NCBI RefSeq assembly: GCF_028864145.1
Contig: NZ_JARBHJ010000023.1
Location: 1 to 42,730, forward strand
Source of the DNA: Actinotignum schaalii
GTDB lineage: Bacteria > Actinomycetota > Actinomycetes > Actinomycetales > Actinomycetaceae
DNA length: 42,730 bases
Reading direction: 5' to 3'
The notes beneath the pieces are model-generated. The model was not told the origin of the DNA and did no database searches. It saw only the letters and a list, made by a program, of their open reading frames with translations. A program made the position numbers and the translations under genes. Positions 8,201 through 16,059 of the stretch are shown here, piece after piece. Position 1 is the first letter of the stretch. Every line of letters starts with the position of its first letter.

Positions 8201-9202
8201 ATGGATCAGCTGCGAACACCGCTCACGTTGAGAGCACTGCTTACCGAGCGGCTGTATGCGGCGTTTACGGACGCGTGGGCGGAGCTGCGCGGGGGCTCGC
8301 TCAGCGGTGAATCACTGCCCGGTACTTCCCCCGGCCCGGTGCTCGGCGACTCTCTGACCGGCCCGGACGCACTGCGAGTGCGGGATCTTTCCTGGCCGGA
8401 ACGCGAGAGCACCGTTCTCCACCTCAGCGGCCCCGGGTTGTCCTGGATTCTCAAAACTGCCGGGAACACTGCTTACAGCGTGGGGCGCGAAGCCCGCGCA
8501 CGCGCGTGGACCGGCCCTTTGGAGGCGCGCGGAACCGTGGCTCGCTTGCTCTGGTACGACGACGCAGTCCCGCTCGCCCTCCTCAACTATCTACCCGGAT
8601 GCGATGTTCTGGGCAGCCCGTGGGAATTATCCTCGCGGGTGCATCACCAGGCAGGCGCCGCCCTCGCGCTCCTCCACCGGGCGGGGGCGCGCCTAGATCA
8701 CGGCTTCGCCAAGGGCGCCCTCACCCGCACCCGGGCGCGGATCACGGAGATTCGCACGCTCGCTCCGGAAGACGCACTGCCCGCTGCTGTGGATGAGAAG
8801 CTCGCCGAAGCGGAGGATTTTCTGGCGAGTTACCGGCCGGGCAGCGTCGTCGTACATCCCACGCACGGGGATTGGCAGGCCCGCAATTGGTTGTGGGATG
8901 AGCCCGCCGGCCAGCTGCGGATCATTGATTTTGGGCGCTTCGGGTGGCGGCCGGCCGCCGCGGACTTCCTCGAGCTGCACGATCTCTGGCACACACATCC
9001 GGAACTGGACGAGGCCGCGGCACGCGGCTATCGGGAAGCCGGAGGAGACTGGCCCGCGGGGAGCGAAGTTGGCAGCGGCGAGCGCGGGAATGGCGGTGCG
9101 GGTGATACCGAGCAGCTTTTAAGAGTGGCGCGCGCCGTCGGCCATATGTGGCATCGCACCACAACGGCCCGCCGGATCGCGAGCGCGCCCGCCGCGCGCT
9201 AA
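8201..9202 (+). CDS. APH-type phosphotransferase family protein
   Basis: A 333-aa small-molecule kinase of the aminoglycoside phosphotransferase fold. The catalytic loop HGDWQARNW (about residues 225-233) carries the Brenner-type HxDxxxxN residues. IIDFGRF (about 244-250) supplies the metal-binding Asp. The N-terminal lobe is divergent, and the glycine- and serine-rich tail (about 285-305) is probably disordered. The substrate is unknown; many housekeeping actinobacterial members are not resistance genes. serS starts 9 bp after the stop, so the two are likely cotranscribed. Confidence 0.8.
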   Translation: MDQLRTPLTLRALLTERLYAAFTDAWAELRGGSLSGESLPGTSPGPVLGDSLTGPDALRVRDLSWPERESTVLHLSGPGLSWILKTAGNTAYSVGREARARAWTGPLEARGTVARLLWYDDAVPLALLNYLPGCDVLGSPWELSSRVHHQAGAALALLHRAGARLDHGFAKGALTRTRARITEIRTLAPEDALPAAVDEKLAEAEDFLASYRPGSVVVHPTHGDWQARNWLWDEPAGQLRIIDFGRFGWRPAAADFLELHDLWHTHPELDEAAARGYREAGGDWPAGSEVGSGERGNGGAGDTEQLLRVARAVGHMWHRTTTARRIASAPAAR

Positions 9203-9211
9203 GCTGGATCC

Positions 9212-10495
9212 ATGCTTGATATGCGTTCTGTTCGCGAGAATCCGGAAGCTATCCGTGAGTCCCAGCGCCGCCGCGGGAATGATCCCGCCACCGTCGATGC
9301 CCTGCTCGCCGCCGACGATGCGCGCCGCACCACCCTGCAAGAGTTCGAAGCCGCCCGGGCCGAACAAAAAGAGGTGTCGCGATCCGTGGGGAAGGCATCC
9401 CCGGAGGAGCGCCCCGCCGTGCTCGCCCACGCCAAAGAGCTGGCTGAAAAGGTCAAGGCGCTGGATGCGGCCGCGGCGGAAGCTGAAGAAACCTACCTGG
9501 CCGCCAATCGCGCGATTGAAAACCCGGTGCTCGCCGGGGTGCCCGCGGGCGGGGAAGATGATTACGAGGTGCTGGAAGTCATCGGCACCCCGCGCGATTT
9601 TGAGGCGGAGGGCTTCACCCCCAAGGATCACCTCGATATTGCGGAGGGCCTGGGGGCCTTGGATATGGATCGCGGCGCGAAGGTCTCCGGATCGCGCTTC
9701 TACTACCTCAAGGGAGTGGGCGCGCACCTGGAAATGGCGATGTTCCGCATGGCCATCGATCAGGCTGCCGAACACGGCTTCACGCTCATGACCACGCCCA
9801 CGATTGTGAACCCGGATATTATGTCCGGCACCGGGTTCCTCGGGGAACATTCCGATGAGATTTACTACCTGGGTGCCGATGACCAGTACCTGGTGGGCAC
9901 CTCGGAAGTGCCGCTGGCTGGCTACCACAAGGATGAGATTTTGGACTTGGGCGGTAAGCCGCGGCGCTACTGCGGGTATTCGGCCTGCTACCGGCGTGAG
10001 GCCGGCTCCTACGGGAAGGACACCCGCGGGATTATTCGCGTGCACCAATTCAATAAGGTGGAAATGTTCTCCTACTGCCCGGTGGAGCAATCCGAGGAAG
10101 AACACCGCGCGCTGCTCGCGATGGAACGCGAAATGATCGGGAAGATGGAACTTCCCTACCGCATTATTAATGTGGCGGCCGGCGATCTGGGTTCTTCCGC
10201 GGCACAGAAATTCGATTGCGAGGCGTGGCTGCCCACCCAGCACCGCTATATGGAAGTCACCTCAACCTCCAATTGCACCACTTACCAGGCGCGGCGGCTC
10301 AATGTGCGCGAGCGCGTGGACGGGAAAACCCGCGCGGTGGCCACCCTCAACGGAACCCTGGCCACTACCCGCTGGCTGGTGGCGCTTTTCGAGAACCACC
10401 AGCAGAAGGACGGCTCGCTGTACGTCCCCGAGGCGCTGCGGCCCTACCTGGGCGCCGGCCTGGCCGGACGCGAATTCATCGAGCCGGTGAACTAG
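9212..10495 (+). CDS. serS: Seryl-tRNA synthetase
   Basis: SerS charges tRNA-Ser with serine. The protein is 427 aa, normal for the family. An N-terminal coiled-coil tRNA-binding arm spans about residues 27-105 (Ala/Glu/Lys rich). The class II catalytic core follows: TSEVPL, motif 2 at [22 protein letters not shown], and motif 3 at [17 protein letters not shown]. The start follows an AGCTGGA site. Two tRNA-Ser genes (111-199 and 13062-13148) flank this region. Confidence 0.97.
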
Positions 10496-10538
10496 GCTCC
10501 CTGAACGGAGTAACCACCAGCGTAACGAAGGCGGCGAT

Positions 10539-11477
10539 GTGAAAATCCAGGAGGAATCGACGGCGGCGCGCTTGCGAGCCGCTTTCGATGCCGCCGGGAC
10601 CCCGCCGGCTGGGCCGGAGCTCATGGTCTGCCTGGACTTGGACGGCACCACGCTCCGCCCGGACGGAATCATCGCCGAACGGGTGGACGCCGCTTTCCAG
10701 GAGCACCTGCGCCGGGGAACCCACCTGGTGGTGGCTACCGGGCGCGGGCGCGAATCCGCCATTCCCGTGCTCGATATGCTGCGGGTGAGCGAAACCATTA
10801 TGGTGTGCTCGAACGGCAACGAAACGGTGCTGCTCGGTAACGCACAGCTTCCCGGGGTGGAGGTGCGCACGGTCCGCTCCATGACGGATCGCGGGGACGT
10901 GGTGCCGGTGCGCCTCGCCCACCTTTTCACCATGGAGGAAGCCGACCTGGCCCGGGCCCTCGATGCCATGCGCCGCGAATTCCCGGGCGCCTATTTCGCG
11001 GTGGAACCGGTGGAAGGCCCGCGGCGGGTAGCGCACGGGTACGCCACCGAACGCCTGGAACCCAATGCCATCTGGGTGAAATTCAAAGACCTCGTGGTCC
11101 CGGACGCCCTCCGCCTCATTATGGTGGTCCCCCGCATGGAAGCCGCCGAGCTCATGGCGCGCCTTTCCCGCCTCGATATGCCCGGGGTGGATTGGGCGGC
11201 GTCATCTTCTTCCGGCTCAGGCTGGGTGGATGCCGGACGGGCCGGGATCTCCAAGGCCAGCGCACTTGAAGTACTCCGCCGCGATTTCGGAATCGCGCGC
11301 GGGGGAACGGTGGCCGTGGGCGATGGCGGGAACGACATCCAGATGCTCGAGTGGGCCGGCGTGGGGGTCGCGATGGGGCAGGCGCTCGATTACGTTCGTG
11401 CGCACGCGCGGGCCGTGACCGATCCGGTATGGGACGACGGCGTAGCCACCCTCCTCGAGGTGCTGCTGGCGCGGTAG
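10539..11477 (+). CDS. Cof-type HAD-superfamily phosphatase
   Basis: A 312-aa HAD hydrolase of the Cof/type IIB group. Motif I is CLDLDGTTL (about residues 30-38) with the nucleophile Asp. Motif II is VVATGRGR, and motif IV is VAVGDGGNDIQML near residue 265. A large C2-type cap sits between motifs II and IV. These enzymes dephosphorylate sugar phosphates, cofactors or nucleotides; the substrate here is unknown. The start is GTG, with AAGG upstream. It lies 43 bp after serS in the same orientation. Confidence 0.88.
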   Translation: MKIQEESTAARLRAAFDAAGTPPAGPELMVCLDLDGTTLRPDGIIAERVDAAFQEHLRRGTHLVVATGRGRESAIPVLDMLRVSETIMVCSNGNETVLLGNAQLPGVEVRTVRSMTDRGDVVPVRLAHLFTMEEADLARALDAMRREFPGAYFAVEPVEGPRRVAHGYATERLEPNAIWVKFKDLVVPDALRLIMVVPRMEAAELMARLSRLDMPGVDWAASSSSGSGWVDAGRAGISKASALEVLRRDFGIARGGTVAVGDGGNDIQMLEWAGVGVAMGQALDYVRAHARAVTDPVWDDGVATLLEVLLAR

Positions 11478-11493
11478 GGGCGCTGCGCGTGGG

Positions 11494-11518
11494 AGGTGCC
11501 GGTATGCGGACGGCACCT
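11494..11518 (+). terminator. Hairpin after the HAD gene
   Basis: AGGTGCCG (11494-11501) pairs with CGGCACCT (11511-11518) across a 9-nt loop, 17 bp after the HAD stop. No T run follows, so termination is possible but unproven. Confidence 0.4.
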
Positions 11519-11537
11519 GAGGCTGCAGCCCCTGCCC

Positions 11538-11831
11538 TCACGCGCCTCTACGCGGGCGAATAATCACCCTACGGAACAAATATTTAGTCACTTTCATCGC
11601 TTCGAGCCGTGCCGCAATAGGGCGATCAGGGCGATACGAATACGCCTCAACCTCGCCGGTCTGTTTGTTCACAAGATACACCGGCTTCCCTTTGGGGACA
11701 GGGTTCGTGAAGACAATCGGGGCGTAATACTCGACGTCTTCCCCCCACCCGCGAGAATAAACTTTCCTGTCCGGATGCTTGTTATGCAAAACTTCCGCCA
11801 CGATCCGCTCAGCTTCTTTTCCTGTAATCAC
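11538..11831 (-). CDS. Imm35/YrhB-like small protein
   Basis: A 97-aa protein starting with GTG at 11831, chosen because GGGGGAG precedes it by a few bases. It has the layout of the YrhB/immunity-protein-35 fold: an N-terminal helix (GKEAERIVAEVLHNK), a central beta segment ending in a G/P-rich turn, and VYLVNKQTGEVEAYSY near residue 60, like the typical 'Vdk.TGev' signature. The C-terminus is basic (RRVIIRPRRGA). The assignment is by pattern only. No polymorphic toxin gene is seen beside it. It marks the left side of the accessory islet. Confidence 0.55.
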   Translation of the reverse strand: MITGKEAERIVAEVLHNKHPDRKVYSRGWGEDVEYYAPIVFTNPVPKGKPVYLVNKQTGEVEAYSYRPDRPIAARLEAMKVTKYLFRRVIIRPRRGA

Positions 11832-12149
11832 CGCTCTCCCCCTCCTGCACAAGGTACGTAGCCCACACCGGCCCCGGCTCGCAATAATCCCACCGTAACG
11901 CCGGGATAGCACCGAGAACCTTATTATTATGATAACTGCTGATAAGTGCCGGAGCCCACAAAAGGGAAGTTAGGGGAAGTTAGCTAGCGAAATCCTCATT
12001 CTCGGCGTCAGGGGGATTTGAGGGGCCCGCAAAGACGAACCAATCAATTCAATATCTTCGATAAGGACACGCGAGGAAACATAATCTAACCGGTACGTAT
12101 TTAGGCATTACCGTTATCGCAATGAAGCCCCAGAAATACTGGCATTATC

Positions 12150-12178
12150 TTGATAATCGTATGCGCCTGGCGTACAAT
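12150..12178 (+). promoter_or_regulatory. Near-consensus sigma-70-type promoter
   Basis: TTGATA (12150-12155) and TACAAT (12173-12178) are separated by exactly 17 bp. This is the best -35/-10 pair I found in the window. It points rightward into a 60-nt stretch without a coding frame that ends in a terminator, so it probably drives a small RNA. Confidence 0.65.
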
Positions 12179-12184
12179 GAACCT

Positions 12185-12244
12185 ACGACGAGTCCACCTC
12201 GGAAGCGTTGTCGCCGGGTCCTCACCGAGGGCCCGAGCTTTTTA
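12185..12244 (+). ncRNA. Candidate small structured RNA
   Basis: From the predicted start (about 12185) to the T run at 12239-12243 the transcript would be about 60 nt. A first hairpin is formed by CGAG-TCCAC-CTCG, with outer CGAC/GTCG pairing possible. The second is the terminator hairpin GGGTCCTC-ACC-GAGGGCCC. No start codon with a ribosome site is present. The RNA runs head-on into the DUF3800 gene, whose stop codon overlaps the T run, so it could be antisense to that mRNA's 3' end or act in trans. It does not resemble 6S, tmRNA, SRP or RNase P RNA. Confidence 0.5.
12216..12244 (+). terminator. Rho-independent terminator of the candidate small RNA
   Basis: GGGTCCTC (12216-12223) pairs with GAGGGCCC (12227-12234) across a 3-nt loop, with one G-T wobble. 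GAGC and then TTTTT at 12239-12243 follow. The rest of 11832-12149 contains no gene that I can support; it is AT-richer than its surroundings. Confidence 0.7.
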
Positions 12245-12946
12245 TGGAAGCCATTTTCTGCTTGTTTTTATATTTTCTAGTAGCGGCTTATAGGCACGTG
12301 CACACGCGCGCTGAGTTTCTTTCGAGGAGCTACCACCCTCTACCAGGCGACGGTGAAGATACGCTACGATATCAGCGCTTTGGATTCCAAAATGTTGCCG
12401 AGAATCTACAAACTCCATCGGACCTTCAATACACATGAGTTGCCGCCGCCGATATCCCGGATTCGTTACAGAGCAGTAATAATCCATGCGTTGCGCGTAA
12501 GTATCAGAATCCGGCACGCTATCAGCGATCACTCGACAGGTATCCCCAGCATTGCTAAGAAACAAGTTAACGCTTTCCAAGAGGTTCCGAAGGCATACTT
12601 CATACGGCGCATCTGGGTATTTGTAACGCGAATTGAGACGCCTTGTATCTACTCCCTCAATGAAAATAGCGGCTCCAGACCGCGATATTTCGGTTGTTAA
12701 CCGTTTCAAGAGTGCAATTGCCGAACCGAAATTCCTTTTCAGAGCAGTCCAATCGTCGCGCCCCGTCATAATGGAATGGCCGTGAAATTCAGGTATATGC
12801 GGCAAATTATTGACGCTCTGGTAGTAACTAGCACGGGCAGCAAACCGCCGATTCAGATCAGCCAACTGCTCGTCCGTAGCAAGCACACCTGCGATGTAAA
12901 AATGTCCCTCGCCATAGGACTCATCAATAAAAAGCGTGTGTTTCAC
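12242..12946 (-). CDS. DUF3800 domain-containing protein
   Basis: A 234-aa protein with the hallmarks of DUF3800: an N-terminal TLFIDESY motif (residues 4-11), a central strand-helix region, and the late FGIQSADIVAYLHRR segment (about 188-202), equivalent to the family's Q-x-A-D motif. The fold is considered RNase H-like, and the acidic residues (Asp8, Glu9, late Asp) would be catalytic. The biological role is unknown; members are common in phage-derived and defence islands. Base composition is clearly lower in GC than the neighbouring genes, which indicates horizontal acquisition. Confidence 0.8.
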   Translation of the reverse strand: MKHTLFIDESYGEGHFYIAGVLATDEQLADLNRRFAARASYYQSVNNLPHIPEFHGHSIMTGRDDWTALKRNFGSAIALLKRLTTEISRSGAAIFIEGVDTRRLNSRYKYPDAPYEVCLRNLLESVNLFLSNAGDTCRVIADSVPDSDTYAQRMDYYCSVTNPGYRRRQLMCIEGPMEFVDSRQHFGIQSADIVAYLHRRLVEGGSSSKETQRACARAYKPLLENIKTSRKWLP

Positions 12947-13027
12947 TACTATTCCCTCTTCGGATTAGTCTGGGCGCTGGCTCCCCGAGCGATACAAGTT
13001 ACAACACAAGCACGATGGCCACGACGC

Positions 13028-13058
13028 CACAGGCGGACCTATGGCACGCGCCATCACA
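13028..13058. repeat. tRNA-Ser-linked repeat, copy 2
   Basis: Matches 80-110 in its first 16 and last 6 bases. The different centre here makes a near-perfect palindrome, ATGGCACGCGCCAT (13041-13054). It ends four bases before the tRNA-Ser(GCT) gene's 3' end. Confidence 0.55.
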
Positions 13059-13061
13059 GAG

Positions 13062-13148
13062 CGGAGACGGAGGGATTCGAACCCTCGAGCCGCTATTGCG
13101 ACTAACACCTTAGCAGGGTGCCACTTTCGGCCACTCAGTCACGTCTCC
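13062..13148 (-). tRNA. tRNA-Ser (anticodon GCT)
   Basis: A class II tRNA on the minus strand. The acceptor arms are GGAGACG and CGTCTCC, and the anticodon loop CTGCTAA carries GCT, reading AGC/AGU. There is a long variable arm, and the T arm is GAGGG-TTCGAAT-CCCTC. CCA is not encoded (CTC follows the discriminator G). The AT-richer islet lies directly beyond its 3' end, a common integration position. Confidence 0.95.
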
Positions 13149-13362
13149 ATGCTCACCGGGAAAGCCTGAGCTCACCCGTGCAAGCCTTACTAGCGTACAC
13201 GCTCAGCGGGGCGTGGTGCCAGTTTTTTCGCGGCGGAATTGGTCACGCGGCGCCGCGCCGCATTGCGTGGCGGCGGGCCGGCGCTATTACCGCCAGGCCG
13301 GCGCTGCGGCGTCGTACCACACGCGCCGCCGCGGGCCGCACCACCGCGAGCGCGCAAGCACG
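13149..13362. other. GC-rich intergenic stretch downstream of nrdF
   Basis: No gene is visible. The decamer GGCCGGCGCT is repeated (within 13278-13305). Its self-complementary GCCGGC cores can pair to form a hairpin on the nrdF strand, a possible terminator. A GCGGCGTCGTAC variant of the recurrent motif sits at 13306-13317. Confidence 0.4.
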
Positions 13363-14352
<990 letters not shown>

Positions 14353-14388
14353 TTAGCGCAGGTGATGCGGGATAGATAACGGTTAAGA

Positions 14389-14401
14389 ACGACGACGCCG
14401 C
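14389..14401 (+). repeat. ACGACGACGCCGC intergenic motif
   Basis: Exact 13-mer, preceded by TTAAGA as at 1637. It lies between the protease gene (stop at 14461) and nrdF, read in reverse on the strand of both genes. Confidence 0.7.
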
Positions 14402-14460
14402 TCGCGCCGCCACACCCCGCCCATTCTAGACGGTTGAATCGGTAAGCGGTGCGAGCCAGG

Positions 14461-16059
14461 TCATGAGGTGCGCGGCTTGGGCTGGATACCTTGCTGGGAG
14501 ATATCCGCATACTGCGTCGTCGTGCCATCGATATTGGTGACGGTGAGGGTGTCATCGGCGATGCTCATCTTGGTCACGTTGGTGAATTCGAGGGGAAGAT
14601 GCGGGTTGAGGTGCTCGGGGTGGCGCAAGCCGAAAAGCCCCGGGTCGTGCCAGAGGCTGAGGGCGCCGTCACGGTCGAGGGTGAGAATATCAGCCATGCC
14701 CGAGCCGTCCAGGTCCCCGGCCGCGAGAGTGCGGAGGTTACGTAAACGGCGGTCACGCCCGCCGAGGATCCGCACAGAACGGAAACTACGCGCGGCATCC
14801 ACCTGGGCGAGGTCGCCGGTTTCTTCCTCGGCCCGCGGCAGAGTTTCTTCCCCGCTGCCGGCATCTAGGTAGAGCGCGACCGCCCCGGAGGACCACACGG
14901 TGAAGGCATCCGCACGGTCGGGCTGACCGCCCAGGTAACCGAGGACTTCGTGGGCCGGGTTACCCGGTTCAAGGGTGGCATCCCCCAGGGTGATGCGGGC
15001 TTCTTCCAGCAGGTCAGCGATGAGGTTATCCATGGGCACGCCCACGGATTCGTCATCGGTATAGCCGCCGCCGTCCTGCGCCCCGCCCGTAATTGCCACG
15101 ATGGCCCATTCCCCGCTCTCGTTCTGCTGGAGCCAGGGCCCGCCGGATACCCCGGTGGGCATCCCAGCGCATTCAATATGGAAGTAGTCCACGCCGTTTT
15201 CCGTGAAGGTTTCGGTGGAGTTACGGCAGTGGCGCGGGTAGGCGGAGGTGTAGTTATCGGCCTCGAAAGATTCAGCCACCGGGTAGCCGATCACCTCAAT
15301 ATCTGGTTGCTCCGGGCTCACATTGGCAATGGGCAGCCCGCCCGTCACATCTTCGAGGAGGTTGCCGAAGCGGTCCGGGTCCGCGGTAAGGACGGCGGCG
15401 TCGTACCGATCCGCATCCTCATCATCGCTGTAATACGCGTCGTTGATGACCACGGCGTCCGGGTCGATGCGCCAAATACCGTGGGGGATATAGGCGGTAC
15501 CGGCAATAATGGCGAATTGCGGTACGAAAACGGTAGCGGCGTAGGCATCTCCGGGCCAGCAGTGCGCGGCGGAAAGAATCTGGGAACGCCCCGGGGTATC
15601 GAGGACCACGCCGGTGCAGCCGCGGATCACCTGGGTTGTACCGGGAACCACGTGAAAGAAGGTCCCCACCTGCGGGATTCCCGGGAAGTTGTAGCCCGCC
15701 CCGGGTAGGCCCTCCCCCAGCCCAACATCGCTGACTTTCGGGTCCTCGTTGAGGGCGGCGTTGAGAGAATCGGGGAGCCCGGCACCGCGGTGGTAGGCGG
15801 CAGCCAGGACCCGGCCGTCCACAATGCCAGAGTCGTCAAATTCGGCGTCGAGATCGCGGTAGGTGGCGTCGTCGTCCCAGACGATAGCAACGCCGTCGTC
15901 GCCAAAATTATCGTAGGTGACCGGGCGGGGAATCGGAGCGGCGAGTACCGGGGCTTTGAGCAGCGCGCAGCCGCCCAGCGCTCCTGCTACCAGAACCAGC
16001 GCGAGTAGGGTGCCGAGAAGCACCACCAAAGTGCCCGCGTGACGATACCGATTCCTCAC
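14461..16059 (-). CDS. Secreted trypsin-like serine protease lipoprotein
   Basis: A 532-aa chymotrypsin-fold protease. The N-terminal hydrophobic segment (10-30) ends in a lipobox-like LGGC, so Cys31 is probably lipidated. The catalytic triad is His166 (SAAHC), Asp220 (DRYDAAVL) and Ser305 (GVSGGPW). A C-terminal region (about 400-530) contains DLDGSGMADILTLDRDG, a calcium-binding FG-GAP/VCBS-like repeat suggesting a partial beta-propeller. The start is GTG at 16059 with GGAG upstream. Its substrate is unknown; it would act at the cell surface. It precedes nrdF by 120 bp on the same strand but is functionally unrelated. Confidence 0.88.
   Translation of the reverse strand: MRNRYRHAGTLVVLLGTLLALVLVAGALGGCALLKAPVLAAPIPRPVTYDNFGDDGVAIVWDDDATYRDLDAEFDDSGIVDGRVLAAAYHRGAGLPDSLNAALNEDPKVSDVGLGEGLPGAGYNFPGIPQVGTFFHVVPGTTQVIRGCTGVVLDTPGRSQILSAAHCWPGDAYAATVFVPQFAIIAGTAYIPHGIWRIDPDAVVINDAYYSDDEDADRYDAAVLTADPDRFGNLLEDVTGGLPIANVSPEQPDIEVIGYPVAESFEADNYTSAYPRHCRNSTETFTENGVDYFHIECAGMPTGVSGGPWLQQNESGEWAIVAITGGAQDGGGYTDDESVGVPMDNLIADLLEEARITLGDATLEPGNPAHEVLGYLGGQPDRADAFTVWSSGAVALYLDAGSGEETLPRAEEETGDLAQVDAARSFRSVRILGGRDRRLRNLRTLAAGDLDGSGMADILTLDRDGALSLWHDPGLFGLRHPEHLNPHLPLEFTNVTKMSIADDTLTVTNIDGTTTQYADISQQGIQPKPRTS

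Follow-up and report, generated by a model that had tools for sequence, protein, structure and literature searches.

The window analyzed here is a stretch of 42,730 nucleotides from Actinotignum schaalii in which a promoter-like sequence is followed by two hairpins and a T-run that meet the 3′-end of a gene for a DUF3800 protein. The question raised by this locus is whether these signals delimit a small RNA gene and, if so, how such an RNA is related to the DUF3800 protein encoded on the opposite strand.

Promoter, Hairpins, and Terminator in the Window

The features of the locus, with the basis for each assignment, are as follows.

12150–12155, plus strand: TTGATA, −35 element of the small RNA promoter (read from the sequence)
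12173–12178, plus strand: −10 box TACAAT (sequence and conserved spacing to hairpin 1)
12185–12246, plus strand: predicted small RNA of ~60 nt (covariance-model match at 12183–12250; covariation)
12185–12211, plus strand: hairpin 1, ACGACG-AG-UCC / GGA-AG-CGUUGU (fold and comparison)
12213–12238, plus strand: terminator hairpin, GC-CGGGUCCUC / GAGGGCCCG-A-GC (fold and covariation)
12239–12243, plus strand: terminator U-run, partly opposite the DUF3800 stop codon at 12242–12244 (sequence)
12242–12946, minus strand: gene for a 234-aa DUF3800 protein (PF12686), transcribed toward the RNA and ending ...RKWLP-stop (profile match and tree)

The promoter boxes are read at 12150–12178 with a spacing of 17 nt, as described in an earlier note on this DNA, and together match the consensus at 10 of 12 positions. 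The start of the RNA at 12185 was inferred from the −10 spacing and its end at 12246 from the U-run. Hairpin 1 contains a purine-rich internal loop and is the part of the RNA with the highest sequence conservation. The terminator stem begins 36 nt past TACAAT at 12215, or at 12213 when two outer pairs are counted, and its last base is 12238. The earlier description of an 8-bp terminator hairpin with a T5 run is correct for the hairpin and the T5 run (12213–12243) and wrong for the stem, which has 9 pairs, or 11 when the outer pairs past a bulge are counted. The collision with the 3′-end of the DUF3800 gene is real, since the stop codon on the minus strand occupies 12242–12244 and the T5 run occupies 12239–12243.

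The case for a promoter and a terminator is weak when judged by consensus sites only, barely better than shuffled sequence. Consensus counts for positions 9000–16000 gave 3 promoter-like sites versus 2.1 expected from shuffles and 9 terminator-like sites versus 6.0 expected. These near-expected counts favor a reading in which sites resembling a promoter and a terminator lie together by accident, or in which the hairpin terminates DUF3800 transcription. By fold energy the unit probably exceeds chance, as the 66-nt strand folds at −30.5 kcal/mol versus −18.5 kcal/mol for shuffles (z of −4.4). The decisive comparison is the one among relatives, which argues at the level of sequence that the putative RNA gene is more than chance.

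Three other interpretations of the segment were rejected. A coding reading was considered for the frame ...RKRCRRVL..., which spans some of the RNAs; the length of the hairpin-1 segment varies by single bases across the RNAs, from 27 to 30 nt, so that no reading frame is preserved, and the absence of a coding frame claimed earlier is upheld. The sequence CGACGAGUCC superficially resembles a hammerhead, but it differs in its core and has no match in Rfam. A terminator serving DUF3800 was discarded because no T-run follows the hairpin on the DUF3800 strand.

Collection of Related RNAs

A DNA search of 59 genomes located the unit in three of five congeners, with copies that are 87%, 81%, and 84% identical, and in G036 alongside a DUF3800 gene. 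The covariance model built from these five sequences matched 12 of 213 family genomes. Eleven of these matches were accepted and one was left out (G065, 24.3 bits, partial hairpin). Iteration and protein-led searches brought the collection to 26 RNAs with that of the window included; 15 of these, among them the window's, were found RNA-first and 11 came via the protein or its flank. In a sample of 396 genomes from the order the RNA model matched 14 genomes, of which 6 were accepted, and the DUF3800 gene is convergent in three of the four newly accepted RNAs. The 8 matches left out of this sample (L120–L127) score at most 31.6 bits with no DUF3800 seen; L119 (32.8 bits, without DUF3800) was retained for its −10 spacing and fold. 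From another set of 21 matches, 10 that were weaker or on the opposite strand were left out. The acceptance cut for RNA matches was chosen after their contexts had been seen. Model R3 detected its own copy alone in 394 genomes of the class, a search in which diverged copies may be lost because the first pass scores few candidates per genome.

Searches were also conducted from the protein side. A four-protein alignment used against named genomes returned five loci, all five with the RNA, and two of these were new (Agromyces humatus and Microbacterium sp. 2FI). The protein search returned 12 plasmid records from six genera and no phage record. When one plasmid record per genus was read, the RNA was present in five of the six. 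Protein searches of viral contigs found no relative, though the RNA pattern reached one such contig: the strict hairpin-1 pattern has a single match there, adjoined by a convergent DUF3800 relative. A looser pattern returned the same viral contig and one chance match with neither a terminator nor DUF3800.

The genome of the window holds one copy of the RNA, and each RNA has one hairpin-1 unit. Two RNAs of the class are present in G120 (L023), at 590–646 and 1501–1579. One is convergent at the 3′-end of the DUF3800 gene and the extra one, without a DUF3800 gene of its own, lies ~150 nt upstream of the gene start. A divergent geometry in G120 had been noted as an exception and was dropped once the second, convergent RNA was identified.

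Conservation and Covariation

In the alignment of the 26 RNAs, the window's included, 97.2% of the base-pair cells are paired and two-sided changes appear at 13 of the 20 base pairs. The covariation score is 0.492 versus 0.180 for shuffled alignments and at most 0.137 when the partners are slid. For the first 11 RNAs alone the corresponding values are 98.6% paired, 10 of 20 pairs with two-sided changes, and a covariation score of 0.361 versus 0.150. The alignment was fitted to the structure, a procedure that is hardly able to create the signal in hairpin 1 because hairpin 1 is nearly ungapped (27–30 nt).

A hexamer of the form xAnnnT ends exactly 6 nt upstream of hairpin 1 in 14 of 20 RNAs (TAnnnT in 11). 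Thirty distances were tested, and none of the others gave more than 4 of 20. The positions that follow the stem carry T at 4.85 of 8 on the RNA strand versus 0.65 of 8 on the other strand (26 RNAs, with the stem end misplaced in G120). Conservation of the RNA gene extends to its sequence, its fold, and the position of its promoter.

We conclude that the small RNA gene is very probably real. The covariation, the promoter spacing, and the confinement of the T-run to one strand leave hardly any room for a chance origin or for a terminator of DUF3800. The earlier claim of an undescribed small RNA is supported by covariation, by promoter spacing, by the absence of an Rfam match among the 24 of 26 RNAs scanned, and by the linkage with one DUF3800 clade. 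The covariance search of the two hairpins near DUF3800 homologues that had been suggested recovered the RNA beside DUF3800 relatives. A lack of both the promoter and the hairpin pairing in homologues of the islet would have spoken against the RNA, and the comparison did not show this.

Geometry at the End of the DUF3800 Gene

The distance from the last base of the terminator stem to the DUF3800 stop codon was compared for 20 loci that have the gene. The stop codon falls 0–6 nt past the stem in 15, 20 nt past the stem in G316, and 37 nt past it in a Frondihabitans plasmid. In G036 and G088, where the C-terminal frame is changed, the DUF3800 gene extends into the hairpin. G120 was left unscored because its terminator was not aligned. 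In 17 of the 20 loci the stop codon thus falls after the last stem base, and the RNA can overlap DUF3800 coding sequence by no more than its U-tail.

This geometry bears on the proposal, made in the earlier note, that the RNA is antisense to DUF3800. In a type I-like arrangement the RNA would pair with the 3′-end or the read-through tail of the DUF3800 mRNA. The two genes are convergent, the RNA ends near the stop codon, and the gene itself enters the hairpin in G036 and G088. The DUF3800 strand is without a T-run, and the DUF3800 mRNA may therefore extend across the RNA gene; antisense action is conceivable in that a transcript reading on would be complementary to the RNA. The proposal is disfavored by the 17 of 20 loci in which the gene ends past the last stem base. 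Moreover, such pairing requires neither a conserved fold nor a fixed distance to the −10 box, yet both have been kept, and RNAs persist where DUF3800 is gone. We regard cis-antisense action as quite unlikely, and as less likely than restraint of the DUF3800 protein by the RNA.

The protein often ends in W-x-P where the RNA terminator meets the gene (window 12242–12256, G122, G209, G552, the plasmids, and also the type B loci described below), which may reflect constraint on the protein or on the DNA.

The DUF3800 Protein and Its Clade

The protein encoded in the window matches PF12686 with an E-value of 8e-10 and 40 bits, for a curated cut-off of 21. An RNase H nuclease fold is reported for the DUF3800 family in an excerpt of PMC10910872. 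Residues D8, E53, D142, and D192 are among those invariant in 10 aligned proteins, and we infer that they are catalytic. No convincing relative of known structure was found by sequence in the PDB (best E of 0.12), and of four DUF3800 proteins compared with PADLOC, three had no match and the fourth had one at chance level (E of 0.054).

An independent profile search located PF12686 in 61 of the 213 family genomes. A tree was calculated for 75 of the 85 DUF3800 places in the family, with short ones left out. The window's protein belongs to a clade of 8 with support of 100/99. For all 8 proteins of this clade a convergent RNA adjoins the 3′-end of the gene, and none of the other 67 gives a match that exceeds 14.4 bits. 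Four of the clade RNAs came from the RNA search, three from model R2 applied to 79 other loci (37.0, 29.8, and 23.0 bits, with the next-best match at 14.4 bits), and that of the eighth member, G120, from a 22.9-bit match.

The hairpin-1 distances track the DUF3800 distances for 17 pairs with a Mantel r of 0.58 (0 of 9,999 permutations as high), a correlation that would also arise from shared descent alone. Two protein–RNA pairs are found in G209. One of these RNAs and the RNA of G009 have the same hairpin-1 sequence, and the G009 protein is the closest to the partner of that same RNA. The suggestion that the RNA is a partner of this element agrees with the linkage to one DUF3800 clade, the covariation, and the promoter spacing, and it is likely that the RNA works together with DUF3800.

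A Sister DUF3800 Group and Type B RNA

In the order sample of 396 genomes the protein profile gave 19 DUF3800 matches, only 6 of which have the RNA, all previously known. In the tree the remaining 13 proteins fall into a single group (97/94) together with a protein from a Micromonospora plasmid. Inspection of those 13 by eye identified 8 with a candidate type B RNA, 3 with a variant, and 2 with nothing clear. The Micromonospora plasmid has no match to the RNA model and is type B by eye. Type B sits at the same place, convergent with the sister DUF3800 group, and comprises a −10 box, a hairpin 1 unlike that of the window's RNA, and a terminator that resembles it.

Candidate type B RNA, strand opposite to DUF3800, at the DUF3800 3′-end: G[CT]AGGACGCC-loop-GGCCTCCCGC, terminator CGCCTTAGACCCCG...CGGGGTCTTCGTGC (by eye)
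Type B loci: L133, L143–L147, and L151–L153; variants L141, L148, and L154

RNAalifold proposed 20 pairs for 9 type B examples, 9 of them with two-sided changes. When each protein is labeled by its RNA (type A, type B with its variants, or none/other), 4 changes are required on the tree versus 13.5 for shuffled labels. The pattern seen in this sample is one in which the RNA class appears to follow the protein clade.

Relation to Rfam and Published DUF3800 Motifs

The Rfam set of DUF3800 motifs runs from I to XI, and the motifs were reportedly introduced by Weinberg and colleagues in 2017. The RNA in the window has the features of such motifs, namely adjoining DUF3800 genes and a conserved secondary structure with covariation. 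No family of Rfam 15 fits the RNA in a scan of 24 of the 26 RNAs (all except those of the Agromyces and Microbacterium loci), and the DUF3800-n models gave no match to these 24 at E up to 1. For the stretch in the window, at E up to 10, there was no DUF3800-n match and two unrelated families appeared at E of 8.2 and 9.2. As far as scanned (24 of 26), the RNA is a candidate new class of DUF3800-associated RNA that is not in Rfam.

At the Rfam thresholds, DUF3800-IX (RF02968), DUF3800-I (RF02969), and DUF3800-XI (RF02975) were detected in the 79 DUF3800 loci beside three (L035, L040, and L042), three (L099–L101), and two (L050 and L067) genes, respectively. Each set is confined to one protein clade, other than that of the window's protein, so that the DUF3800 clades of this bacterial family tend to have their own RNA classes. 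Excerpts of the literature state that Rfam 15 includes DUF3800-I and -IX (PMC11701678), mention DUF3800-IX (PMC7657543), and associate DUF3800 with putative ncRNAs (PMC10910872). In the excerpts of the published DUF3800 literature among the matches listed there is no description of the window's RNA and no tested function for DUF3800.

RNAs beside Broken or Lost DUF3800 Genes

The DUF3800 genes beside the 26 RNAs, as judged by tblastn within 1,300 nt or as far as the contig reached, are full in 15 cases, broken in 5, and undetected in 6. A convergent DUF3800 gene, full or broken, lies at ~100 nt or closer for 20 of the 26 RNAs and for 9 of the 15 in the RNA-first set, where the gene is full in 5 cases, broken in 4, and undetected in 6. 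G036 and G088 have a frame change close to the C-terminus, and G552 has one close to the N-terminus. There is an internal loss in G208, and in G167 there is a gap and the first 68 residues are unmatched. The last codons (...RKWIP) can still be recognized by eye in G234, which has no tblastn match. The 11 RNAs beside broken or undetected genes mostly retain their pairing; that of G234 has lost part of it. The genomes of G001, G003, G004, and G234 have the RNA and no match to PF12686. Between G003 and G004, 1 of 55 bases is changed in the RNA core, whereas the upstream 250 nt have 18 changes in 249 bases, a difference that is not clear.

Persistence of an RNA beside a broken or lost partner would fit an antitoxin, and would also fit an independent RNA or a recent loss of the gene. 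An independent host small RNA, for which the DUF3800 neighbor is incidental, would account for the four genomes with the RNA and no PF12686 match and for the extra copy in G120. In actinobacterial chromosomes and plasmids as well as on a virus contig, the RNA nevertheless occupies the same place relative to genes of the DUF3800 clade, and its type follows the protein clade, and so we consider incidental proximity improbable.

Surroundings of the Locus

The stretch between a HAD-type hydrolase gene and tRNA-Ser(gct) has a G+C content of 47–54% versus 55–71% around it, and contains the DUF3800 gene on the minus strand with the convergent RNA unit. Genes appear to have been exchanged repeatedly at this islet.

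Several further observations were made in this region. Positions 11900–11941 of the window match the congener G003 (95%). The start of the segment at 12011–12089 matches G003 and G004, and the whole of it matches G005 (75%). The matching stretches in G003 and G004 border small genes that are absent from the window and have no Pfam match where tested. An ORF of 124 aa on the minus strand at 11538–11912 has no Pfam or NCBIfam match, and a similar ORF is present in G003 (L009, 13756–14142). In the congener G004 a DUF488 gene (L010, 7435–7983) takes the place of DUF3800 between the RNA and tRNA-Ser(gct). By raw count, a tRNA or SRP RNA gene is present in the flanks (about 1.2–1.5 kb) of 15 of 79 DUF3800 loci (L026–L104), as expected for exchange sites.

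Proposed Function of the RNA–Protein Module

The pairing of DUF3800 with a conserved small RNA suggests a two-part RNA–protein system. We propose that the module in the window consists of the DUF3800 protein, a member of an RNase H-type family, and a convergent, structured small RNA of ~60 nt that would be driven by its own sigma-70-type promoter and closed by a one-way terminator. Hairpin 1 would bind the DUF3800 protein, and the bound hairpin would keep the nuclease inactive, so that the RNA would be antitoxin-like, as in AbiF with its RNA. The module may serve in defense or in the upkeep of a mobile element. The proposed restraint by hairpin 1 rests on the analogy with AbiF, another RNA-linked nuclease, which is bound and neutralized directly by its RNA according to an excerpt of PMC12373285. 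On balance we slightly favor a two-gene module of this kind, in which the RNA restrains a DUF3800 nuclease active in defense or mobile-element upkeep; inhibition of DUF3800 as the role of the RNA is put forward tentatively, at a little under even confidence. Several results count against the proposal: the RNAs that persist after loss of DUF3800 suit an independent role as well, the repeats and common transcript of type III systems are missing, the four proteins compared with PADLOC gave nothing beyond chance level, and only 6 of 19 DUF3800 genes in the order sample have an RNA of this class.

The RNA could instead be a cofactor or guide, with hairpin 1 as a handle and DUF3800 activated or directed by the RNA. 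The clade linkage and the correlated distances fit this arrangement equally well. DUF3800 is described as an accessory nuclease in some VI-F and V-A2 CRISPR loci in an excerpt of PMC12669027, and excerpts of PMC10910872 and PMC12669027 place DUF3800 proteins in Cas12a2 (V-A2) and VI-F loci. The RNA has no variable guide-like segment, however: the hairpin-1 segment is 27–30 nt, the remainder is terminator, and the loop of hairpin 1 is 3–5 nt in the folded examples. The RNA also persists in the four genomes without a PF12686 match. A cofactor or guide is, on these grounds, a minority possibility.

Beyond the window, restraint of DUF3800 by an RNA leads to a general proposal that we offer as speculation, with the odds against it. 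DUF3800 and a dedicated trans-acting small RNA might constitute a widespread and unrecognized toxin–antitoxin or defense module, in which an RNase H-type nuclease is combined with many exchangeable RNA classes (the window's, type B, and the Rfam motifs) on plasmids and phage-like elements, and from which the DUF3800 proteins of V-A2 and VI-F loci would be recruits. The proposed recruitment of Cas13 from AbiF offers a parallel for DUF3800 in V-A2 and VI-F loci. The pattern in this sample, in which the RNA class follows the protein clade and RNAs stand beside broken or lost DUF3800 genes, can be tested as a claim of general validity. An RNA of ~60 nt with a fixed promoter position and a single DUF3800 clade is a handy pair with which to ask whether such RNAs inhibit, activate, or guide.

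Comparison with Known Systems

DUF3800-I, -IX, and -XI are likewise small structured RNAs adjacent to DUF3800 in the same bacterial family; their sequence and fold are unlike those of the window RNA, and their models give no match to it. DUF3800-I and -XI lie on the same strand as the gene, upstream of the conserved domain, whereas the window RNA is convergent. Like the window RNA, DUF3800-IX is convergent with its gene and reaches as far as the stop codon (in L042 the RNA extends to 1394 and the stop codon begins at 1393), but it differs in having a long closing stem, a multibranched structure in two of three folds, and no T-run.

AbiF with the RNA RCd22 (Rfam RF03085) similarly combines a ribonuclease-type protein with an adjacent small RNA of a described motif. 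AbiF is a HEPN protein, whereas the protein in the window belongs to an RNase H-type family; for AbiF, two RNA motifs occupy the 5′-portion of a transcript shared with the protein, in contrast to one hairpin unit and a convergent gene. The type III toxin–antitoxin systems (ToxIN, CptNI, and TenpNI) also use a structured RNA to inhibit a nuclease, as is proposed for the window. Type III antitoxin RNAs are made of repeats and share one transcript with the toxin, with the RNA first, whereas the window RNA has one hairpin-1 unit without repeats and the two genes are on opposite strands. In the convergent type I system txpA–RatA a small RNA lies at the 3′-end of the gene, and the window RNA is likewise convergent at a gene 3′-end. 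Unlike txpA–RatA, the window encodes a predicted nuclease of 234 aa, the fold of its RNA is conserved, and the coding overlap is a few nucleotides.
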